From Paenibacillus assamensis DSM 18201 (GTDB lineage Bacteria > Bacillota > Bacilli > Paenibacillales > Paenibacillaceae): a DNA stretch of 64,000 nucleotides. The translations under genes and the position numbers were made by a program. The stretch covers positions 190,321-254,320 of the forward strand of contig NZ_KE383839.1 in NCBI RefSeq assembly GCF_000422445.1, in the 5' to 3' direction. The notes beneath the pieces were generated by a model. The model saw only the letters and a list, made by a program, of their open reading frames with translations. It did no database searches and was not told the origin of the DNA. This document shows positions 10,407 to 20,964 of this stretch, in pieces. Position 1 is the first letter of the stretch; every line of letters begins with the position of its first letter.

Positions 10407-10513
10407 AAGTGTAGTGGTTTCTGTTAACTTGCAGGCAGTTGTAATTTTGACATGCATCTCCCATATCCAATAAAATGGAATGGTCAATATTAGGGGATGC
10501 GGAGAGTGTAACG

Positions 10514-11194
10514 ATGTTCCGAACGATATTGCTTGTTGAAGATGATATGTTAATGCGCGAATTTATAACGGATTATTTCAAGAAAGAGCAATGGAAGGTT
10601 TACGAAGCTGAGGATGGAAGACAGGCGTTAGAGATGTTTGAGCAGGCTGCTATGGATCTGGTTGTGTTGGACATAATGATGCCTGAAATTGACGGCTGGA
10701 CTGTGTGTAGGCGCATTCGTCAGAAGTCGGATGTGCCTATTATCATTATTACGGCTAGAACGGAAGATGATGATCAAGTGATGGGATATGAACTAGGTGC
10801 AGATGAATATGTTACGAAACCATTTAGCCCAAGAGTGCTGGTTGCCCGTGTGAAGGCACTGCTGAAAAGATCAGAAGGATCGATCGGTCGTGAAGGAGAT
10901 GTGATGAGCTATGGCGAACTTTCTATCAACAAGCGCTCACATACGGTATTTGTAGGAGAAGAAATCATCAACTTATCTCCAAAAGAATATGAACTACTTT
11001 TATTTCTGACCAAGCATGAGGCTACGGTGTTGTCGCGGGAGTATATTTTAAATGCGGTATGGGGATTTGATTACTTCGGAGATCTGCGTACTGTAGATAC
11101 TCATATCAAAAAGTTGCGAGCTAAGCTGGGAAATGAAGGGCGATATATTCGTACCGTTATTCGCGCAGGCTATAAGTTCGAACTTGAGCCATGA
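10514..11194 (+). CDS. OmpR-family response regulator
   Basis: 226 residues from the ATG at 10514, 7 bases after a GGAGAG site; the upstream ATG at 10475 lacks one. The receiver domain (residues 1-120) has the acidic pair VEDD, phosphoacceptor Asp near residue 52 (VVLDIMMPEIDGW), a switch Thr (IIITARTE) and the conserved Lys (YVTKPFS). A linker leads to a winged helix (LSPKEYELLLFLTKHEATVL, TVDTHIKKLRAKLG, VIRAGYKFE). The last four bases overlap the start of the sensor kinase, so both are translationally coupled. A typical two-component regulator; regulon unknown. Confidence 0.95.
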   Translation: MFRTILLVEDDMLMREFITDYFKKEQWKVYEAEDGRQALEMFEQAAMDLVVLDIMMPEIDGWTVCRRIRQKSDVPIIIITARTEDDDQVMGYELGADEYVTKPFSPRVLVARVKALLKRSEGSIGREGDVMSYGELSINKRSHTVFVGEEIINLSPKEYELLLFLTKHEATVLSREYILNAVWGFDYFGDLRTVDTHIKKLRAKLGNEGRYIRTVIRAGYKFELEP

Positions 11195-12951
11195 GAAAAT
11201 ATGGTGTGGTTAGCAAGCTTTTCATTGCGACGTCTGCCTTAATAGCCATTATATTTATGCTAATCATGCTAGCTCAGGGACTTTTCTTTGAACGTTATTA
11301 CCGCGAATTCAAAGTTAGTGAATTGAAACAAAGTATGATTCAATTAAGTAAGCAGTATGGACAGGGGCCCGCTAGTGAACGTGAGGTTTCCTATTTGCTT
11401 GGACAGTTCTCAAATGAAACGAGTGCAAGTATAGCCATTCTAGATGAACAGATGAATAGAATTAGAATAAACCCGTATTTTATTGAACTTCAAACTCCAA
11501 CTAAATTGGTCACGCTTCGGCTTCAAATTGAAGCTATGTCGATGAAAGATATTCCTCAAGGATTGCACATCGGAGATAATCTTACAGTAGATGGTATTTT
11601 TATGGATCAACAATCAACCATCTTGTCACCCGTCAAATTTCAATCACAACAATCTGAATTAGTAGAAGGATTAGTCCGCGTAGAAGGGAAAATTGTTGAG
11701 ATGATGCTGCCTGAGCAGCACTTATATAATCCTTATTACCAAGATACGCTCTTAAATGATGCACTTTGGGATTGGATGATACGAGCAGATCAGAATGAGT
11801 CTCGTATGCAAAATGGAGAACCTATTCAGTCGGAATGGATGGATCCTTGGAGCGGTGTGAAGTATGTTGTTGTGACATTGCCATTTTCTAACGTAGAGCA
11901 GAATAAAGGTTACTTATTTGCACTGACATCTCTACAACCCGTTGGTGAGGCAGTGGTGATACTCGATAAATATATGATTTATTTGGCGCTTCCGATATTG
12001 CTGCTTGTTATGTTTCTGTCTTTTGTATTCTCTAGAATTGTGTCGAAACCTTTACTGACGTTAAACCACACAGCTACACGTATGGCACAATTGGATTTCA
12101 CTGTACCATCTGCTATTCATTCAAAAGATGAGTTCGGTGAACTATCCCAGAGTATGAATACGATGGCGCGGAATTTGGATACTGCCTTATATGAGCTTAC
12201 AGTAGCGAATGCTAAATTGCAGGATGATATGATAGAGAAACAACGCCTAGAACAGCTTCGTAAAGAGCTAATCGCGAATATTTCGCATGAGCTTAAGACG
12301 CCTTTGGGTATTGTAAAAGGGTTTACAGAAGGTTTACAGGATGACGTGGCGGAGGAGAAGCGAGAGCGTTATTTATCTTTAATACTGAATGAAGTAGATC
12401 GCATGAACGTGCTAATTATGGAAATGTTGGAGCTTTCCAAATTCGAGGCCAAAGTCATTCGTTTATCACCTCGAACAATTGAGCTTCCAATGCTAGTGCA
12501 TAAAGTGTGTGCTTGTTTTACTCGGGAATTGGAAAGTAAGCGGCTGCAGGTTCAGATGAATGGAGAAGCTTCCGTACTTATATATGCTGATCCTAAGTGG
12601 ATCGAGCAAGTGATTGTGAATTTGTTGAGCAATGCTATTCGGCATGGACTAGCACAAAGTATGATTCGAATCAATATGTATGAAACAGTGTCTGGTCAAA
12701 TAATGACCTGTATCGAGAATGAAGGCTCGTCCATTGGCGAAGAAGACATGCATCGGATTTGGGATCAATTTTACCGAGTGGAACGTTCACGTGATCGAAA
12801 ATTAGGTGGTACGGGTCTTGGACTTGCTATGGTTAAGCATATTCTAGAGCTCCATAGCAGTGATTACGGGGTGAAAAATACGAGTAAGGGCGTTATGTTT
12901 TATTTTAGTTTGAAGAAGAGTGACAGCATCGTGCTCGATAATGGGAGTTGA
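11191..12951 (+). CDS. Two-component sensor histidine kinase
   Basis: 586 residues. Transmembrane helix 1 near residues 8-32, an extracytoplasmic sensor region of about 225 residues without a family I can name, and helix 2 near 255-280 (IYLALPILLLVMFLSFVF). These are followed by HAMP (SKPLLTLNHTATRMAQLDF), a HisKA dimer domain with the phosphoacceptor His in NISHELKTPLG near residue 365, and an ATPase domain with the N box (VIVNLLSNAIRHG) and GTGLGLAMVKH. Overlaps the response regulator gene by 4 bases and the following lipoprotein gene by one base, giving a three-gene unit. The signal is unknown; the lipoprotein may be an accessory sensor. Confidence 0.95.
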   Translation: MRKYGVVSKLFIATSALIAIIFMLIMLAQGLFFERYYREFKVSELKQSMIQLSKQYGQGPASEREVSYLLGQFSNETSASIAILDEQMNRIRINPYFIELQTPTKLVTLRLQIEAMSMKDIPQGLHIGDNLTVDGIFMDQQSTILSPVKFQSQQSELVEGLVRVEGKIVEMMLPEQHLYNPYYQDTLLNDALWDWMIRADQNESRMQNGEPIQSEWMDPWSGVKYVVVTLPFSNVEQNKGYLFALTSLQPVGEAVVILDKYMIYLALPILLLVMFLSFVFSRIVSKPLLTLNHTATRMAQLDFTVPSAIHSKDEFGELSQSMNTMARNLDTALYELTVANAKLQDDMIEKQRLEQLRKELIANISHELKTPLGIVKGFTEGLQDDVAEEKRERYLSLILNEVDRMNVLIMEMLELSKFEAKVIRLSPRTIELPMLVHKVCACFTRELESKRLQVQMNGEASVLIYADPKWIEQVIVNLLSNAIRHGLAQSMIRINMYETVSGQIMTCIENEGSSIGEEDMHRIWDQFYRVERSRDRKLGGTGLGLAMVKHILELHSSDYGVKNTSKGVMFYFSLKKSDSIVLDNGS

Positions 12952-13516: not shown

Positions 13517-15517
13517 TCAATAGGACGAGTATTTTCGTTTATAATTGGCCAGTGTTAGAAGAGGCCAGATGTAGTTATAGCTATGATAATAAATATAGAA
13601 ATTTCCCGGTAGTCCTGCACCAGTTGGATACGTATTTGCATGCTTAGTTGGATAATGAATCATATTGAGCAGAGCCTTAATTCCACGTTCTATTTCTTCA
13701 GTTGGCTGTGGAGAAACAGCAATAAGTGCATCCAAGGCCCACGCTGTCTGGGAAGGTGTAGATTGTTGGAGCGGGATATATGTTTTTTTGCGATCACTCT
13801 CACATGATTCACCCCATCCTCCATCTGGGTTTTGTATCCGTGATAACCACCGTGCTGCCCGCAGTAGAGATGGGTTAGAAGCATCAACACCTACAGCTGC
13901 CAATCCTGATACGGCAGCCCAAGTGCCATAAATATAGCTGATTCCCCATTTCCCATACCACGAACCGTCCTGCTTTTGATGATTTATTAACCAATCTACA
14001 GCATGTTGGATAAAGACATGTTCCTGCTTAAGCTGAGCTGTATTTCCTAAATATTCTAATGTTCTCCCCGTTAAGTCAGCAGTAGATAGATCGGTAAGTG
14101 CAGCATCTGCGCCATCATAAGGCAGCCATGTTAATATCGATTTATTCGTATTCTTCTCAAATGCTGGCCAACCGCCGTCGTCATTTTGCATCGACAAGAG
14201 CCACTGAAGCCCTTTGTCATAAGCGTCGGCATAAGCAGAGCTGCTCCAGGCTAGATTTTTAATAGCTCGAAGGGCAGCGGTCGTGTCATCGATATCAGGA
14301 ATGATGGTGTTAATATCTGAAAATCCCCAACCCCCAGGTGGTGTATTCGGGTTATGGAACTGCCAATCTCCGAGTTTATGCTGCTGGCGCGAGAGTAGGT
14401 AGATGCCTGCTCGTCGAATGGCACTATGCTGGGCGGGTAAACCTGCTTGCTGCAAGGCGTGGCTGATGAGTGCTGTATCCCAAATGGTGGGTGGTGAATT
14501 TTGAATATGCCAATGTTTATCTGAAGGGCATGCGAATGATTTGAGCCCTTGAATAGCTTTGATGATATGGGGGTGTTTCCGATCATAGCCAAGTGCGAGT
14601 AAAGCCAATATCATCAAAAAGGTAGCACTTGCATAGCTGTACAGCGTGCCATTAGGCTCAATTCGATCCAGCATGAAGCTTTCCGCTTTATTTCGAGCCT
14701 CTTGTTTAACCGATTGTGGAGAAGGTAGCAGCTGAAATAATTCTCTTTTTATATTTTGAAATAAAGACCGTTTCGCTTCTTCTAAGCGTGTCTCGAAGTC
14801 ATAAGTTGAATGGAAATTTGAGAGGTCAAATGGGTAGTAATCGTCTTGCAAGTGCTGTGGTTGTTGAATATCGTCCGAATGATTGTAGCTTTGCGTCTCA
14901 TCTTCCCAACTTCTATTTGGCAATATTAAATCGGAAAGATCAGGAGCTCCTTCAGGTATTTTTGCATCCGGGAGACTGCTCATGATAAGAATAGGGGCGA
15001 TATGTACTCTGGCATAACCTACAATATCGTAAAAACGAATTGGTGACCATTCGGGAAGCAGCAGAAATTCTATAGGCACCGTATAGGAGCGAGGCCATGG
15101 GCGCTGCCCTGTGGCTGCTAACATCGTTCTTGCTAACACACTGTTAGCCTGCTGCATCCCACCGTTGCTTAGTATATATGACTTTGCTTTTAATAGGACA
15201 GAATCATCTTTTTTCATCGTTCCAGAATAGAGAAGAGCATAATAAGCCTCTACTGTAGCTGATACATTGCCATTCGTTTCGTTCGGATATACGCTCCAAT
15301 AGCCATCTGAATGCTGCTTCGATACAATGCGCTGGCTTAATTGCGTCACCAGCTCTTCCTCATCCAGCTGCAGTACGCGAATAATAATAATCATATAGCT
15401 GTCTGTCATTGTCCCACTCTCAAAACAAAAGCGCCATGAGCCATCAGGAGCTTGGGTTATCAGTAGTTGTTGAATGAGACGATTGATTCCAGCCTCAATG
15501 TCCGCTCTTCCATTCAT
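13517..15517 (-). CDS. sqhC: Squalene-hopene / sporulenol cyclase
   Basis: 666 residues, close to family length. The N-terminus (LLITQAPDGSWRFCFESGTM) resembles Bacillus sporulenol synthase SqhC. The catalytic acid motif DIDDT (the DxDD type) lies near residue 405, and several QW-type repeats are visible (QNDDGGWPAFEKN, HQKQDGSWYGKWG, QNPDGGWGES). The C-terminus PGNFYIYYHSYNYIWPLLTL is characteristic. These membrane-associated enzymes cyclise squalene or tetraprenyl-curcumene to hopanoid-type lipids; in Bacilli the product is a spore lipid. It is monocistronic and divergent from the leader of the GNAT gene. Whether the substrate is squalene or a C35 terpenoid cannot be told. Confidence 0.93.
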   Translation of the reverse strand: MNGRADIEAGINRLIQQLLITQAPDGSWRFCFESGTMTDSYMIIIIRVLQLDEEELVTQLSQRIVSKQHSDGYWSVYPNETNGNVSATVEAYYALLYSGTMKKDDSVLLKAKSYILSNGGMQQANSVLARTMLAATGQRPWPRSYTVPIEFLLLPEWSPIRFYDIVGYARVHIAPILIMSSLPDAKIPEGAPDLSDLILPNRSWEDETQSYNHSDDIQQPQHLQDDYYPFDLSNFHSTYDFETRLEEAKRSLFQNIKRELFQLLPSPQSVKQEARNKAESFMLDRIEPNGTLYSYASATFLMILALLALGYDRKHPHIIKAIQGLKSFACPSDKHWHIQNSPPTIWDTALISHALQQAGLPAQHSAIRRAGIYLLSRQQHKLGDWQFHNPNTPPGGWGFSDINTIIPDIDDTTAALRAIKNLAWSSSAYADAYDKGLQWLLSMQNDDGGWPAFEKNTNKSILTWLPYDGADAALTDLSTADLTGRTLEYLGNTAQLKQEHVFIQHAVDWLINHQKQDGSWYGKWGISYIYGTWAAVSGLAAVGVDASNPSLLRAARWLSRIQNPDGGWGESCESDRKKTYIPLQQSTPSQTAWALDALIAVSPQPTEEIERGIKALLNMIHYPTKHANTYPTGAGLPGNFYIYYHSYNYIWPLLTLANYKRKYSSY

Positions 15518-15620
15518 TGCTTCATCCCCCCAATAGTCATGGTTAAAAATTCTTCTGCATCTTTATTGACGATATTCATGTTCATCCTGTCCTATTCGAA
15601 TACTTACACAACAAAGTAAC

Positions 15621-15649
15621 TTGGTAAAATTTATTGTTTATCTTAAATT
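15621..15649 (+). promoter_or_regulatory. Candidate promoter of the leader-controlled GNAT gene
   Basis: TTGGTA at 15621-15626 and TAAATT at 15644-15649 are 17 bases apart. The leader ORF begins about 40 bases downstream. Confidence 0.45.
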
Positions 15650-15688
15650 TATAAATTAAAATTAAAATTGAAAAGGGGGACGAGCAAC

Positions 15689-15721
15689 ATGGAGCATGCT
15701 AACTACAATTTCAACTCATAA
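15689..15721 (+). CDS. Leader peptide upstream of GNAT gene
   Basis: A 10-codon ORF encoding MEHANYNFNS, with a strong AAAAGGGGGA ribosome site 8-9 bases upstream. Its TAA stop directly abuts the first of three complementary RNA segments that control access to the next gene's ribosome site. Five of the nine codons after ATG are NAY codons (His, Asn, Tyr, Asn, Asn). The size, position and context match regulatory leader peptides of inducible resistance genes; no function of the peptide itself is expected. Confidence 0.6.
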   Translation: MEHANYNFNS

Positions 15722-15777
15722 TGGTGGTTGTTATCGATAGCGACCACCCAACTAAACGGAGAATAGGTGGTTCATAA
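15722..15777 (+). promoter_or_regulatory. Translational attenuator: three competing RNA segments
   Basis: Segment 1 (GGTGGTTGTTATC, 15723-15735) can pair fully with segment 2 (GATAGCGACCACC, 15736-15748), counting two G-U pairs. Segment 2's ACCACC (15743-15748) is also complementary to segment 3, GGTGGT (15766-15771), which contains the ribosome site AGGTGG of the GNAT gene 7 bases before its ATG. The 1:2 and 2:3 pairings are mutually exclusive. By inference, a ribosome parked at the end of the leader ORF masks segment 1 and lets 2:3 hide the ribosome site. Confidence 0.6.
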
Positions 15778-16200
15778 ATGCTAAACAAACAAAAACAATA
15801 CGAGATCATCGAGCGTCGTCCAACCGTGTTAGAACATAAGACAATATGGGAAGCAGTTGGCTGGGGGAACGTTAATATAGACATGACAGAGCGATCAATT
15901 GCTAACTCTGTGTACACTGTAGTTGTGGTGTGTGATGATCAGGTGGTCGGCATGGGACGAATTGTCGGGGACGGAGCAATGTATTATTACATACAAGATG
16001 TTGCCATATTGCCAGAGTATCAAGGAATAGGCATAGGCAAACAAGTGATGGAAAAACTGATGAACTATATCCGTTATCATTGTGTTGGAGCTGGTTTTGT
16101 TGGCTTATTCGCATCACAAGGGAAAGAACCATTCTATGAACAATTCGGCTTTAAAGACTATTCGCCGGGCATGACAGGGATGTTCATGGTAATAGAGTAA
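15778..16200 (+). CDS. GNAT acetyltransferase under leader control
   Basis: 140 residues, a compact GNAT domain: VTVVVVCDD-type strand (VYTVVVVCDDQVVGMGRIVG), the acetyl-CoA loop in ILPEYQGIGIGKQVMEKL near residues 80-97 (the R/QxxGxG/A motif as QGIGIG), and PFYEQFGFKDYSPG near the C-terminus. The ATG is 7 bases after AGGTGG, which is part of a competing hairpin system preceded by a 10-codon leader. That regulation, and the neighbouring aminoglycoside adenylyltransferase and ABC-F genes, suggest a drug-modifying or stress role. The substrate is unknown and the domain alone does not prove resistance. Confidence 0.88.
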   Translation: MLNKQKQYEIIERRPTVLEHKTIWEAVGWGNVNIDMTERSIANSVYTVVVVCDDQVVGMGRIVGDGAMYYYIQDVAILPEYQGIGIGKQVMEKLMNYIRYHCVGAGFVGLFASQGKEPFYEQFGFKDYSPGMTGMFMVIE

Positions 16201-16353
16201 TAGGCTTTTCGTACGGCTGGTTTAGGCTCACAATATGGAGTAGACGGGGCGATCGCAGATATGAAATGGTTTAGTCTCAATGAATTACCTGACCGTTTAG
16301 CTTGTTTTACGGTTCCTGCTATTGACCAATTACAACGCCGCCACCGACTGTAA
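16201..16353 (+). pseudogene. Remnant of a Nudix hydrolase gene (C-terminal part)
   Basis: An open stretch without a start codon encodes about 49 residues ending at TAA 16351. Its end reads GVDGAIADMKWFSLNELPDR followed by an LxxFTVPAIDQL helix, which resembles the C-terminal 'MKWFSLDELP' tail of Nudix hydrolases. There is no Nudix box (GX5EX7REUXEEXGU) and no ribosome site. It abuts the GNAT stop, suggesting a deletion removed the 5' part. Evidence is a short motif only. Confidence 0.4.
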
Positions 16354-16417
16354 TTGGTAGTGAGAAAGTAAGAGTATTACAGGGAGTATATACATGGTTG
16401 CGAGGTGCTGACCGATC

Positions 16418-16789
16418 ATGTTTTCCGAGAGAGAACAGATAATTAAAAGCTATTTCAAGGCTTGGTTACATAAAGACGCGACTATATTGGATGAGATTTT
16501 TAGCTCCGACATCATTTACAGTGAGTGCTATGGTCCACAATATCTCGATATTGAGCAAGTAAAACAATGGTTTGCGGATTGGAATTCACAGGGGACGGTA
16601 GTAGAGTGGAGCATTAAGCAATTTATCCATCAAAATGATATGTCAGTTGTAGAATGGTACTTTCATTGTGTCCATGAGGATGTGGAGCATCAATTCAATG
16701 GGGTATCTATTATCTCCTTTACGGCTGAAAATAAAATTTCGCAACTTAAAGAGTTTCAGTCGCAAGCAGAGCATTATTGTCCTTATTAA
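16418..16789 (+). CDS. NTF2-like / SnoaL-type protein
   Basis: 123 residues, the size of a single NTF2-like domain. It opens with REQIIKSYFKAWLHKDATIL, continues with SECYGPQYLDIEQVKQWFAD and closes with the strands VVEWYFHCVHEDVEHQFNG and ENKISQLKEFQSQAEHY, a pattern seen in SnoaL-like polyketide cyclase/NTF2 family members. AGGTG lies about 10 bases upstream. Such proteins are small ligand-binding pockets or enzymes; no catalytic residues can be assigned. It stands alone between a Nudix remnant and a NERD gene. Confidence 0.8.
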   Translation: MFSEREQIIKSYFKAWLHKDATILDEIFSSDIIYSECYGPQYLDIEQVKQWFADWNSQGTVVEWSIKQFIHQNDMSVVEWYFHCVHEDVEHQFNGVSIISFTAENKISQLKEFQSQAEHYCPY

Positions 16790-17664: not shown

Positions 17665-18546
17665 TTAATAAATCTCTTGTGCGGCTTCTGGTAGATCTCT
17701 CATTCGTGTGAGATAGGCAGTCATATTCGTATCATCTTCCAAGCGATATGTATACGAAAAGGCTGCAGCCACCTCTTGGGCTAATGTTCTAAACAACTCA
17801 CACGTCACAAAAATAGAGTCCCACATTTGCTCGTAATTCGCATTTGAATAAGTTGCTGTGTACATTTCCCAATATTCAGTTGGAAGATACATGTTAAAGT
17901 ATTTTCCCATTTTGCCTGTAGAAACTTTGAAATCATACTTCATACCGATCCACCACGACACCATTTCATCCAAAGGTGCTCTGGAAGTGAGCTCGTACAT
18001 ATGTTTTGCATACGAAAGTTCATCTCGCCAAATTCCTTTCGCCACGTTCTGTTGACACCACCAGAACTCATTGCAACAATTCATGAACTCTGCTTCTGTA
18101 GGCTGCTTAACATAATAGCTGCTGTCTATCGGGGGAGCAATAGGCGGAAGTATACTGTCTTTATCCAGTAACGGAACAGTAAGGCTGTCTTCCAGATAAG
18201 TGTCCAGCATAGCTCCTTTCGTTTGAAGACGAAGATCGATCCGATTGCCATCTGTGAATAGCATCAGGTAGATATATGTGCGCTCATAATGAGTCTCTAT
18301 GCCAACGGCTTGATCATTTTTATCGGGTTCTTGCATCATGAGCCGTTCGCCGAACACGTCTATCCACTTTTCATCTCTTAAAAAGGATTCTGTCTCTGTA
18401 ACGACATAAACGATATCATAGTCTTGAAAAATATCTTTTGGCGCATTAGGGTTCGTTCTGGAGCCATTCATATAGACAGCACGTATACGTTCGTCTTTGT
18501 TGGCGACACCGAGTATTAAGTCAAACATTTCTTGTTCACTTCTCAA
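17665..18546 (-). CDS. Aminoglycoside 6-adenylyltransferase (streptomycin resistance type)
   Basis: 293 residues, matching the ANT(6)/AadK family. The N-terminal nucleotidyltransferase core has NGSRTNPNAPKDIFQDYDIV, with the GSR...D-x-D pattern that binds nucleotide and Mg2+. The C-terminal half carries family features such as FWWCQQNVAKGIWRDELSYA and MVSWWIGMKYDFKVSTGKMG, as in AadK of Bacillus. These enzymes transfer AMP to the 6-position of streptomycin. The start is TTG at 18546 with AGAGGTGA 6 bases upstream. It is transcribed divergently from the ABC-F leader. Likely an intrinsic chromosomal resistance gene; activity not proven. Confidence 0.92.
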   Translation of the reverse strand: MRSEQEMFDLILGVANKDERIRAVYMNGSRTNPNAPKDIFQDYDIVYVVTETESFLRDEKWIDVFGERLMMQEPDKNDQAVGIETHYERTYIYLMLFTDGNRIDLRLQTKGAMLDTYLEDSLTVPLLDKDSILPPIAPPIDSSYYVKQPTEAEFMNCCNEFWWCQQNVAKGIWRDELSYAKHMYELTSRAPLDEMVSWWIGMKYDFKVSTGKMGKYFNMYLPTEYWEMYTATYSNANYEQMWDSIFVTCELFRTLAQEVAAAFSYTYRLEDDTNMTAYLTRMRDLPEAAQEIY

Positions 18547-19017: not shown

Positions 19018-20964
19018 ATGACAATTGTAAATATCAAAGAGATAAAGAAGTACCATGCAGCAAATCTTATTTTAGATGGGGTGACGTTCCAGATAAAGGC
19101 GGGTGAGAAACTCGGTCTCATTGGTCGAAATGGAAGTGGAAAATCCACGCTGCTCCAATTAATTGCTGGTCATGAGCCTATAGATGAGGGCATGCTGACG
19201 ATAAAAAAAGACTTGCGAATTGGTTATTTACCGCAAATTCCTGCTGAGTTCGAAGCGCTGACGGTATATGAAGTTTTAGCTTATGGCTATAGGGATTTAA
19301 TGCTGACGAAGCAGGAAATGACAAAGATTGAGCAGCAAATGTCTAGTCCAGAGGCAGAAACTAATTCTGAAAGGATGGAGCAGCTGCTGAATGCGTATGC
19401 AAATATGCAAGAGAAGTTCGAGCAGGGTGGCGGCTATGAAATGGACACGGCTATTGAACAAGTGGCGAACGGGATACAAATTAACCGCAGTAGTTACGAA
19501 AGAGACTTTTCCAGCTTGTCTGGTGGCGAGAAGACAAGGGTGGTTTTGGCATCTCAGCTAGTTGTAGCACCAGATTTACTCCTGTTAGATGAGCCGACCA
19601 ATCATTTAGATCTGAAAGGAATGGAATGGTTGGAACAGTTCATTAAACGTTATGACGGTGCATGTGTAATCGTATCGCATGATCGATATTTCCTAGATGC
19701 AGTAGGGACGAAGATGATCGAATTAGAAGACGGTGAATCACAAGTGTATCACTGCAATTACAGCGGCTATATGAAAGAGAAAGAAGAACGTCTGTTGCAG
19801 CAGTTTGCACAATATAAAGAACAGCAAAAGATTATTAAGAAAATGAAGGAAACGATCCGTCAACTAGAGGAATGGGGCCGTGTCGCAGGGGACGAGAAGT
19901 TTTTCAAACGGGCAGCCTCTATTCGAAAAGCGTTGGAGAGAATGGAAATAGTAAAACGTCCAATAGTAGAGCGAAAAGCAGCAGAGTTTGATTTGGCATC
20001 TCTTGAACGTTCTGGTCGTCAGGTTATCTTATTTGAAGGATTAACGAAGAAGTTTGAGGGGCGTACGATTCTAGATCAAGCAAAGGGCAGCCTTCTTTAC
20101 GGTGAAAAAGTTGTCTTACTAGGGGAAAATGGATCTGGCAAGACAACACTTTTCAAGCTGTTGCAAAGCATGATCTCACCAGATGAAGGTCAAGTTGAAC
20201 TAGGTGCGAGAGTAGAGATAGGTTATTTAGCTCAGCAGGAGCCAGTGTCAGATAGCAAGAAGACAGTGCTGGAATTTTTCCGAACTGAAAGTGGATTGGA
20301 AGAAGGAGAGGCGCGGAACGTATTGGCCAAATACCTGTTTTATGGCGCGGATGTGTTTAAACCACTACAAATGCTATCTGGAGGTGAGTGGTCCCGTTTG
20401 CGGATAGCCTTGCTTGTGAGGAAGAAGCCGAATTTGTTAATGCTAGATGAGCCGACCAATCATCTTGATATCGCTTCAAGAGAAGCTTTGGAGGAAGCAC
20501 TCGATGAATTTCCTGGAACGGTACTAGCGATTTCCCATGACAGATACTTTATTAATCGTTTGGCGAAGCGGGTATGGGAAATGAAAGCGGGGGCAGTTTC
20601 TACTTACGAGGGAAATTATGATGATTTTAAGGTAAAGCGTGCGGAACTGCTTGCTGTAGAGTATACCTTGACCAGTAATCATGAATCGCATGAACATGTA
20701 ATGCCCGCTCAGCGGGACAACACGAAAAAAACGGCGGCTGATGAAAAAAGCAGACAGGTTCGTTCACATGAGCGAAAACTTGAGCAATTAGAAAGTGAGA
20801 TTGCTGCCCTTGAAAAGAAGATCTCCTGTGTGGATGAGGAAATGCTTCATTTCAATCAAGGCGGCGATGCTGCCCAACTTGAAACTTTATGGCGGAAGAA
20901 AGAAGAGTTGCAGACCAATCTTGATGGATGTTTGGAAAGATGGATCGAGTTATCAAATGACTGA
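19018..20964 (+). CDS. ABC-F family ATPase, probable ribosome-protection (antibiotic resistance) protein
   Basis: 648 residues with two ATPase domains and no membrane segments. Walker A motifs are GRNGSGKS (near 36) and GENGSGKT (near 371), signatures LSGGEKTR and LSGGEWSR, Walker B LLLLDEPTNHLD and LLMLDEPTNHLD. An alpha-helical linker between them (KKMKETIRQLEEWGRVAGDE) would reach the ribosomal E/P site, and a C-terminal coiled coil spans about 570-648. Family knowledge: ABC-F proteins bind the translating ribosome; resistance members displace drugs, others resolve stalls (YdiF/Uup type). The leader ORF and attenuator upstream, and the adjacent ANT(6) gene, favour a drug-inducible role. 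Which drug class is unknown. Confidence 0.93.
   Translation: MTIVNIKEIKKYHAANLILDGVTFQIKAGEKLGLIGRNGSGKSTLLQLIAGHEPIDEGMLTIKKDLRIGYLPQIPAEFEALTVYEVLAYGYRDLMLTKQEMTKIEQQMSSPEAETNSERMEQLLNAYANMQEKFEQGGGYEMDTAIEQVANGIQINRSSYERDFSSLSGGEKTRVVLASQLVVAPDLLLLDEPTNHLDLKGMEWLEQFIKRYDGACVIVSHDRYFLDAVGTKMIELEDGESQVYHCNYSGYMKEKEERLLQQFAQYKEQQKIIKKMKETIRQLEEWGRVAGDEKFFKRAASIRKALERMEIVKRPIVERKAAEFDLASLERSGRQVILFEGLTKKFEGRTILDQAKGSLLYGEKVVLLGENGSGKTTLFKLLQSMISPDEGQVELGARVEIGYLAQQEPVSDSKKTVLEFFRTESGLEEGEARNVLAKYLFYGADVFKPLQMLSGGEWSRLRIALLVRKKPNLLMLDEPTNHLDIASREALEEALDEFPGTVLAISHDRYFINRLAKRVWEMKAGAVSTYEGNYDDFKVKRAELLAVEYTLTSNHESHEHVMPAQRDNTKKTAADEKSRQVRSHERKLEQLESEIAALEKKISCVDEEMLHFNQGGDAAQLETLWRKKEELQTNLDGCLERWIELSND

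Follow-up and report, generated by a model that had tools for sequence, protein, structure and literature searches.

Upstream of a small acetyltransferase gene of Paenibacillus assamensis lies a ten-codon open reading frame (ORF), followed by RNA segments that can pair in two incompatible ways. Could a ribosome on this leader decide whether the gene is translated, and if so, what would the leader sense? We addressed this question in the window, by which we mean the whole stretch of 64,000 nucleotides that was analysed, and in related genomes. The gene itself (15778..16200, plus strand) encodes a single-domain GNAT N-acetyltransferase of 140 amino acids that matches Pfam Acetyltransf_10 with 53.9 bits (cut-off 23.6) and reaches the cut-off of no NCBIfam family. 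Its nearest named relatives come from Paenibacillus agilis (85%) and Paenibacillus sp. SC116 (83%), and the protein of P. arenosi is 92% identical over residues 53-140. Among proteins of solved structure, the closest chains at E up to 1e-3 are SA2161, an unnamed GNAT, a plant serotonin N-acetyltransferase and others, and they indicate no substrate.

The leader region sits between the GNAT gene and a divergently oriented squalene-hopene cyclase gene (13517-15517, minus strand). This gene and the SnoaL-like, NERD and ANT(6)-like neighbours were matched in the nearest relatives only, and an operon with neighbouring genes was rejected on the basis of this partial test, in which most loci carried only about 1.5 kb of flank. 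Near the GNAT gene are also an ANT(6)-like adenylyltransferase gene (17665-18546, minus strand), with a strong match to Pfam PF04439 and a match to NCBIfam ANT_6 below the cut-off, and the gene for an ABC-F ribosomal-protection-like protein (19018-20964, plus strand) that scores above the cut-off of NF000355. Together, these genes possibly form a cluster of translation-inhibitor defences. A two-component pair of response regulator and histidine kinase is encoded at 10475-12951 (plus strand), its best NCBIfam matches, PhoB and PnpS, falling below their cut-offs. The region before the window leader holds two promoter matches, where 3.2 are expected from shuffles. Of 34 loci, 18 have their best -10-like box ending 26-32 nt upstream of the leader start, with a mean score of 8.6 versus 7.4 at random positions. 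Because the window matches lie at shuffle level and the box is so placed in 18 of 34 loci, we regard a leader mRNA with a short 5′ end as only likely.

The leader ORF (ATGGAGCATGCTAACTACAATTTCAACTCATAA; 15689..15721, plus strand) encodes MEHANYNFNS and ends in TAA, and the positions of its start and stop are conserved in relatives. It is preceded by the Shine-Dalgarno sequence AAGGGGG (15673..15679, plus strand), which bears out the leader and strong ribosome site of the preliminary description. In 31 aligned leaders, the upstream sequence is G-rich at -14..-10, with TGA at -8..-6 in most. One base after the leader stop begins a hairpin in which segment 1 (GGTGGTTGTTA; 15723..15733, plus strand), the portion that would lie under a ribosome at the leader stop, pairs with segment 2 (TAGCGACCACC; 15738..15748, plus strand). 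The hairpin has 11 bp and a 4-nt loop (-15.5 kcal/mol, z -3.3 against 200 shuffles); the 13 bp first claimed for it count a loopless palindrome, and the sequence is indeed an almost perfect palindrome around TATCGATA.

As had also been proposed, segment 2 can pair instead with segment 3, the GNAT Shine-Dalgarno sequence AGGTGGTT (15765..15772, plus strand). This second helix consists of 7 bp, one of them G-U, between 15742-15748 and 15766-15772 (-11.4 kcal/mol), and is equalled by 7 of 200 shuffled arms. Segment 2 is common to both pairings, which makes the 1:2 and 2:3 helices mutually exclusive, and the latter hides the GNAT ribosome site. The folding energy of 15670-15800, 131 nt in all, is -27.2 kcal/mol (z -2.56), which 4 of 200 shuffles equal. 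A scan of 15500-16450, confined to the window, found no terminator-like site, and terminator-based control was rejected. Furthermore, curated Rfam models yielded no gathering match in the window, none up to E 1 in 15560-15830 and none up to E 0.05 at the loci of five relatives, on which grounds a riboswitch, a T-box or another Rfam family was rejected.

A single sequence with this arrangement is not decisive, because six further starts, out of 443 candidate start codons in the window (several per reading frame), also pass a loose scan. The scan called for a 6-14 codon leader with a ribosome site, a stop no more than 6 nt from a hairpin, and an arm complementary to the next ribosome site. At 43 other loci, 11 of 734 candidates passed, one of them the true element of the locus termed L155; the reversed-sequence control comprised only 18 candidates and says little. 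The arrangement in one sequence thus does not beat chance, and it is conservation that makes the observation real.

At a threshold of E 1e-3, 89 of 98 genomes contain a relative of the GNAT. With the stricter threshold of 1e-35, relatives turned up in 77 of the 394 family genomes and 72 of the 392 order genomes, two sets that overlap. A ribosome site and a short leader were found at 31 curated loci, the leader starting with ATG (29) or GTG (2) and ending with TAA (29) or TAG (2). In a set of 32 loci, the leader comprises 7-13 codons, and a hairpin of 6-14 pairs starts 0-5 nt past its stop and 25-42 nt past its start. With the exception of L013, the curated loci share a GGYGG arm followed by a complementary arm, usually CCRCC (30 of 31; CUGCC in L041, CCGUCC in L078), and GGTGG stands upstream of the GNAT start in the 31 loci except L013, L076 and L077.

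A midpoint-rooted tree was built from 88 of 90 GNAT proteins (two short ones omitted), with 32 of its 85 inner branches unresolved. In it, a clade of 60 rows with support 100/100 holds 31 complete elements, from ten genera and two families, whereas none was found among the 28 rows of the other main clade. The element labels on this tree were assigned by eye and not blind. The remaining rows of the 60-row clade comprise eight leaders without hairpin, three hairpins without a clear leader, three fusions, one deletion and 14 rows without trace. From this distribution, the element appears to be old in the clade and to have been lost repeatedly. These 29 of 60 rows with absence or partial loss are what a vestigial leader, or one that merely stabilises the mRNA and regulates nothing, would lead one to expect. 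We consider this explanation highly improbable: leader, spacing and pairing are retained where the GNATs are only 55-85% identical to that of the window, and the element also stands before a second gene family (see below).

Several loci illustrate how the leader region differs between relatives. Closely related P. arenosi lacks the element (L032). In L010 and L032 (genome G013, with contigs matching P. arenosi), the GNAT gene is split over two contig ends, and in place of the leader region there is other DNA that carries an AGGAGG ribosome site and may be an insertion. The leader and hairpin of L007, which stands next to L008, are apparently gone between two G-rich ribosome sites. A group of closely related genomes (L046, L047, L049, L051, L052, L058 and L071) keeps a leader that begins GTG-GAG, about 25-28 nt upstream of the GNAT start, and has no hairpin. 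In L039, L040 and L079, the leader start is in frame with the GNAT (MELTIIERPP..., MELKIIERPP... and MEAGRHMNRNS..., respectively), and in these natural fusions it probably now serves the GNAT gene. Such fusions would be expected if the leader start were used, and they suggest that it is used for translation.

Comparison of the arms between loci gives further evidence on the two helices. RNAalifold, applied to 29 loci, retains a six-pair core with two-sided changes that keep the pairing, namely at a mid-core pair, where T-A becomes C-G in 6 loci, and at the sixth pair, in 2 loci. Folded locus by locus in 34 loci, the 1:2 hairpin has a mean energy of -13.4 kcal/mol and a mean z of -3.3; L078 and L013 do no better than shuffles. 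Arms 1 and 2 covary: in 32 of the 34 loci (L013 and L063 omitted), a locus's own arms pair at -13.8 kcal/mol and arms swapped between loci at -11.3 kcal/mol, a cost of 2.5, and none of 500 permutations attains the energy of the own arms. The 2:3 pairing has a mean of -10.9 kcal/mol versus -6.3 kcal/mol for shuffled arms and ranks 10 or better of 200 in 25 of 34 loci, L077 and L013 being no better than shuffled arms. Covariation of this second helix is absent over the same 32 loci (own arms -10.5 versus swapped -10.2 kcal/mol, reached by 48 of 500 permutations); the GNAT Shine-Dalgarno sequence hardly varies. The expectation that relatives would show a conserved leader and covariation in both pairings therefore held for the leader, present in 31 loci, and for 1:2, whereas 2:3 is conserved without covariation.

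The hairpin loop and upper stem vary between loci with base pairing, including G-U pairs, retained, while the lower stem stays near GGYGG/CCRCC. This constancy is a further argument for 2:3, as it would be expected if arm 2 must also fit a Shine-Dalgarno sequence, something a lone hairpin would not need. The same pattern bears on the idea that a DNA operator, or a hairpin bound by a protein, underlies the palindrome and that the leader ORF is incidental, for which the almost perfect palindrome of the window speaks. In that case one would not expect loop and upper stem to differ between loci with pairing kept, G-U pairs among them, nor the leader ORF and its distance to be kept as well, and we give such a site only a very slight chance.

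To estimate what a translating ribosome would do to these helices, it was modelled as a blocked footprint of 30 nt (an assumed size) on each leader codon, and the energy of opening five core bases of the GNAT site was calculated. This static folding ignores kinetics, co-transcriptional folding and the short dwell at stop codons. Over 32 of 34 loci (L013 and L129 omitted), the site opens at a mean cost of 2.9-3.1 kcal/mol while the ribosome stands between two and six codons ahead of the last sense codon. The cost rises to 5.2 kcal/mol one codon before the last and to 6.2 kcal/mol on the last, compared with 3.6 kcal/mol for free RNA. Except in L060 and L122, the mean over the first three codons is lower than the value of the last codon (30 of 32 loci), and in 21 of 32 the last codon has the highest energy of all. 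For the window, the calculation gives 4.8 kcal/mol with no ribosome, 2.2-2.4 kcal/mol on codons 1-7, and 5.7 and 6.0 kcal/mol on codons 9 and 10. Furthermore, with a ribosome held on codons 1-3, the footprint extends to about 22 nt past the leader start and so falls short of the hairpin, which begins at 25 or more, in 32 of 32 loci. An earlier run on 31 loci gave a rise from free RNA to the last codon of +2.28, positive in 28 of 31, versus -0.49 for dinucleotide-shuffled spacers. L004, L077 and L014 did not close relative to free RNA in that run, and for L066, L005, L054, L076 and L013, where the rise is positive, 8 to 22 of 40 shuffles gave one at least as large.

In this model, a ribosome on the last two leader codons would close the GNAT site, and one farther upstream would leave it open. 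The calculation also bears on translational coupling, whereby ribosomes that finish the leader would re-initiate at the GNAT gene, the hairpin would shorten their path, and leader translation would help expression. The 49-73 nt between leader stop and GNAT start, partly folded away by the hairpin, would suit such coupling. However, a ribosome finishing the leader shuts the GNAT site in the calculation, and the GNAT gene has its own Shine-Dalgarno sequence; we consider coupling quite unlikely.

The free RNA requires separate consideration. In nine of 32 loci, the GNAT site of the ribosome-free RNA is calculated to pair with the leader sequence, with a probability of 0.62-0.80 in L001 (the window), L003, L004, L043, L048, L005, L074 and L091, and of 0.44 in L092. 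Leader and GNAT site might thus be paired at rest, with a stalled ribosome freeing the site and the 1:2 hairpin being secondary, a way of working that has been proposed for the toiL leader before topAI-yjhQ (available text of PMC12121999). The pairing with the leader has a probability of 0.36 or less in the other 23 of 32 loci, whereas 1:2 and 2:3 occur in nearly all, and such unmasking leaves unexplained why the leader stop lies 0-5 nt before the hairpin. We consider it unlikely as the main mechanism. However, because the naked RNA of the window and eight other loci pairs in this way, the equation of free RNA with an expressed gene may not hold in the window genome. Thus, of the switch first proposed, in which free 1:2 pairing keeps the GNAT gene on and a ribosome on the last leader codons turns it off, the mutually exclusive pairings are conserved and the computed polarity recurs in 30 of 32 loci, while the state of the free RNA is doubtful in the window.

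The reading that we favour is a conserved translational attenuator operated by ribosomes, in which the GNAT gene would be off when the leader is read to its stop and on when a ribosome is arrested early. In an undisturbed cell, a ribosome would read the 7-13 codon leader to the stop and sit on segment 1; segment 2 would then be free to pair with the GNAT Shine-Dalgarno sequence and turn the gene off. Conversely, a ribosome held at the start or on the first leader codons would leave segment 1 free to take up segment 2, and the GNAT site would open. Early arrest should switch the gene on because, in the folding calculations, a ribosome on late codons closes the site and one upstream does not. 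The GNAT would presumably then inactivate the compound that causes the arrest. We judge the proposal as a whole to be reasonably probable. The mechanism is likely; its operation in cells, with early arrest as the inducer, is what we infer from the modelled ribosome positions.

What might hold a ribosome so early in the leader? The preliminary description had pointed to NAY codons, read by queuosine-modifiable tRNAs. Such codons make up 46 of 253 over 31 leaders and are absent from nine of the 31, for which reason queuosine or NAY sensing was rejected. It is codon 2, GAG (15692..15694, plus strand, in the window), that is the most conserved leader codon: it is GAG in 28 of 31 leaders, AAG in two and GAA in one, while only 4 of 173 background ATG starts have GAG as codon 2. 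Among the loci added later, whose leaders are MDLECFKAN (L122), MEDVIGKS (L129) and MEFTQGNMS (L126), codon 2 is GAG in L126 and L129 and GAT in L122. The GNAT start of L129 is ambiguous and overlaps the ribosome site. Residue 3 is F, Y, L, H or Q in 32 of 34 leaders; past this position, no codon is common to the leaders and the residues vary widely. The wealth of codons for one amino acid that marks trp-type leaders was therefore not found, and starvation for a single amino acid was rejected, no repeated codon being common to the leaders. Because only the leader start (ATG-GAG and mostly F, Y, L, H or Q) is conserved, we infer that the signal would be arrest at the start codon or at the first translocation.

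Paenilamicin-type inhibitors are one candidate signal. When codon 2 was varied, arrest by paenilamicin B2 at AUG was strongest with G as the first base of that codon, with little or none for U (available text of PMC11581978). In addition, paenilamicin is inactivated by the N-acetyltransferase PamZ (excerpts of PMC11581978 and PMC9054821), a protein of tandem GNAT domains and about 275 residues (excerpt of PMC9054821). Because the window GNAT differs in size from PamZ as described, with a single domain and 140 residues in place of the tandem architecture, its link to paenilamicin is only a hypothesis.

Is the element confined to GNAT genes? A model termed R1, built from 29 of the 31 curated loci (without L013 and L076), gave 21 matches at E up to 1e-3 across the 394 family genomes, of which 18 belong to its own alignment and three, in G299, G262 and G129, are new. 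Two of these are GNAT loci, namely L122 in G299, where the GNAT behind the intact leader element stops after 56 residues, and L129 in G129. The third, L126 in G262, has the element (L126:1501-1610) before a P-loop kinase-like gene unrelated to GNAT, whose product is identical to a Paenibacillus forsythiae entry and matches NCBIfam PRK06761 with 304 bits (cut-off 270). A related kinase-like gene on a plasmid of Pseudalkalibacillus hwajinpoensis (Bacillaceae) also carries the element (L186:1394-1503; 68 bits, E 3.7e-10 with model R2, which includes L126), with the leader start TTG-GAG. Its opening energy is 3.5-4.3 over the first six codons versus 9.2 and 7.9 on the last two. Only the N-terminal part of the L186 kinase-like gene is kept, and it runs into other sequence. 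Among 30 loci of the wider kinase family, the element was found at the seed only (L155, the same place as L126).

Model R2 comprises 28 loci, 26 of the 31 (without L013, L014, L063, L076 and L078) plus L122 and L126. In 392 order genomes it found 24 places at E up to 1e-3, each before a GNAT gene and none a new kind of locus; 23 are in its own alignment and one (G487) is a near copy of a member. A search of the class at large under strict filters recovered the element in one of 225 sampled genomes, the window's own, and viral and phage collections held no clear element, with one weak match at E 0.24 in L185. Nine weak R1 matches at E 0.001-0.04 (L130-L138), examined out of a set with 43 weaker ones up to E 0.5, comprise four known GNAT loci and five without the arrangement of leader, hairpin and site. 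The one new locus of the R2 search of the order (L153, E 0.085) was rejected as an instance of the element, being the start of a permease-like gene. The element thus seems to be modular but rare. One might go further and picture a portable RNA sensor of first-step arrest, in which codon 2 with G (or A) would be set for arrest at AUG by small-subunit translocation or initiation inhibitors, such as paenilamicin- or galantin-like compounds of Paenibacillus relatives, and which would gate a small GNAT and a PRK06761-type P-loop kinase that both inactivate such compounds. This broader picture is possible, though doubtful.

The element can be compared with other leader systems. A proposed aminoglycoside riboswitch of integrons is said to combine a leader peptide with competing site and anti-site pairs before an aminoglycoside-modifying enzyme gene; the element here matches no Rfam model. 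In the classic erm and cat leaders, a closed hairpin keeps the gene off by default and a stalled ribosome opens it. The short upstream ORF is common to the erm, cat, vga and vmlR leaders and to the present one, whereas the inferred polarity is opposite to that of erm and cat, with a ribosome at the leader end expected to close the site. A resting hairpin that holds the gene's ribosome site was likewise not found, as 1:2 does not contain the GNAT site; in free RNA, the leader closes that site in nine of 32 loci. In trp-type attenuation, competing helices turn expression off when a ribosome reaches the leader end and on when it is held earlier, features that the proposed switch would share. In contrast to this ribosome-mediated attenuation, which is mentioned in the available text of PMC10272879, the output here would be access to a Shine-Dalgarno sequence, with three segments, no terminator-like site and no codon repeats for one amino acid.

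For vmlR, which also has a short upstream ORF, induction relies on arrest at translation initiation and a terminator is added (available text of PMC9226507). The toiL upstream ORF before topAI-yjhQ of E. coli is the closest described system that we found. In that system, start-codon arrest by tetracycline or retapamulin is reported to expose a hidden Shine-Dalgarno sequence, which is proposed to be masked by pairing with the leader, and induction can follow stalls at several positions (available text of PMC12121999). As far as that text describes it, toiL resembles the present element in its short upstream ORF, in the sensing of start-codon arrest, which we propose here, and in its translational output. 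It differs in that the anti-site arm is here a separate segment, located downstream of the arm at the leader stop and ahead of the gene, and in that the site, by calculation, stays open only if the ribosome is arrested before the last two codons. Among the papers brought up by full-text searches of the open literature, which leaves most subscription papers outside, we found no description of the element, and no Rfam family matched it. As far as searched, this is a real, conserved family of probable translational attenuators that has not been described.

The conserved ATG-GAG start makes it simple to challenge the leader directly with known start-arresting drugs. If the element works as inferred, it would represent an undescribed family of translation-sensing leaders that report whether ribosomes get through the leader. 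It would also mark the GNAT clade, and perhaps the kinase family, as probable defences against translation inhibitors.
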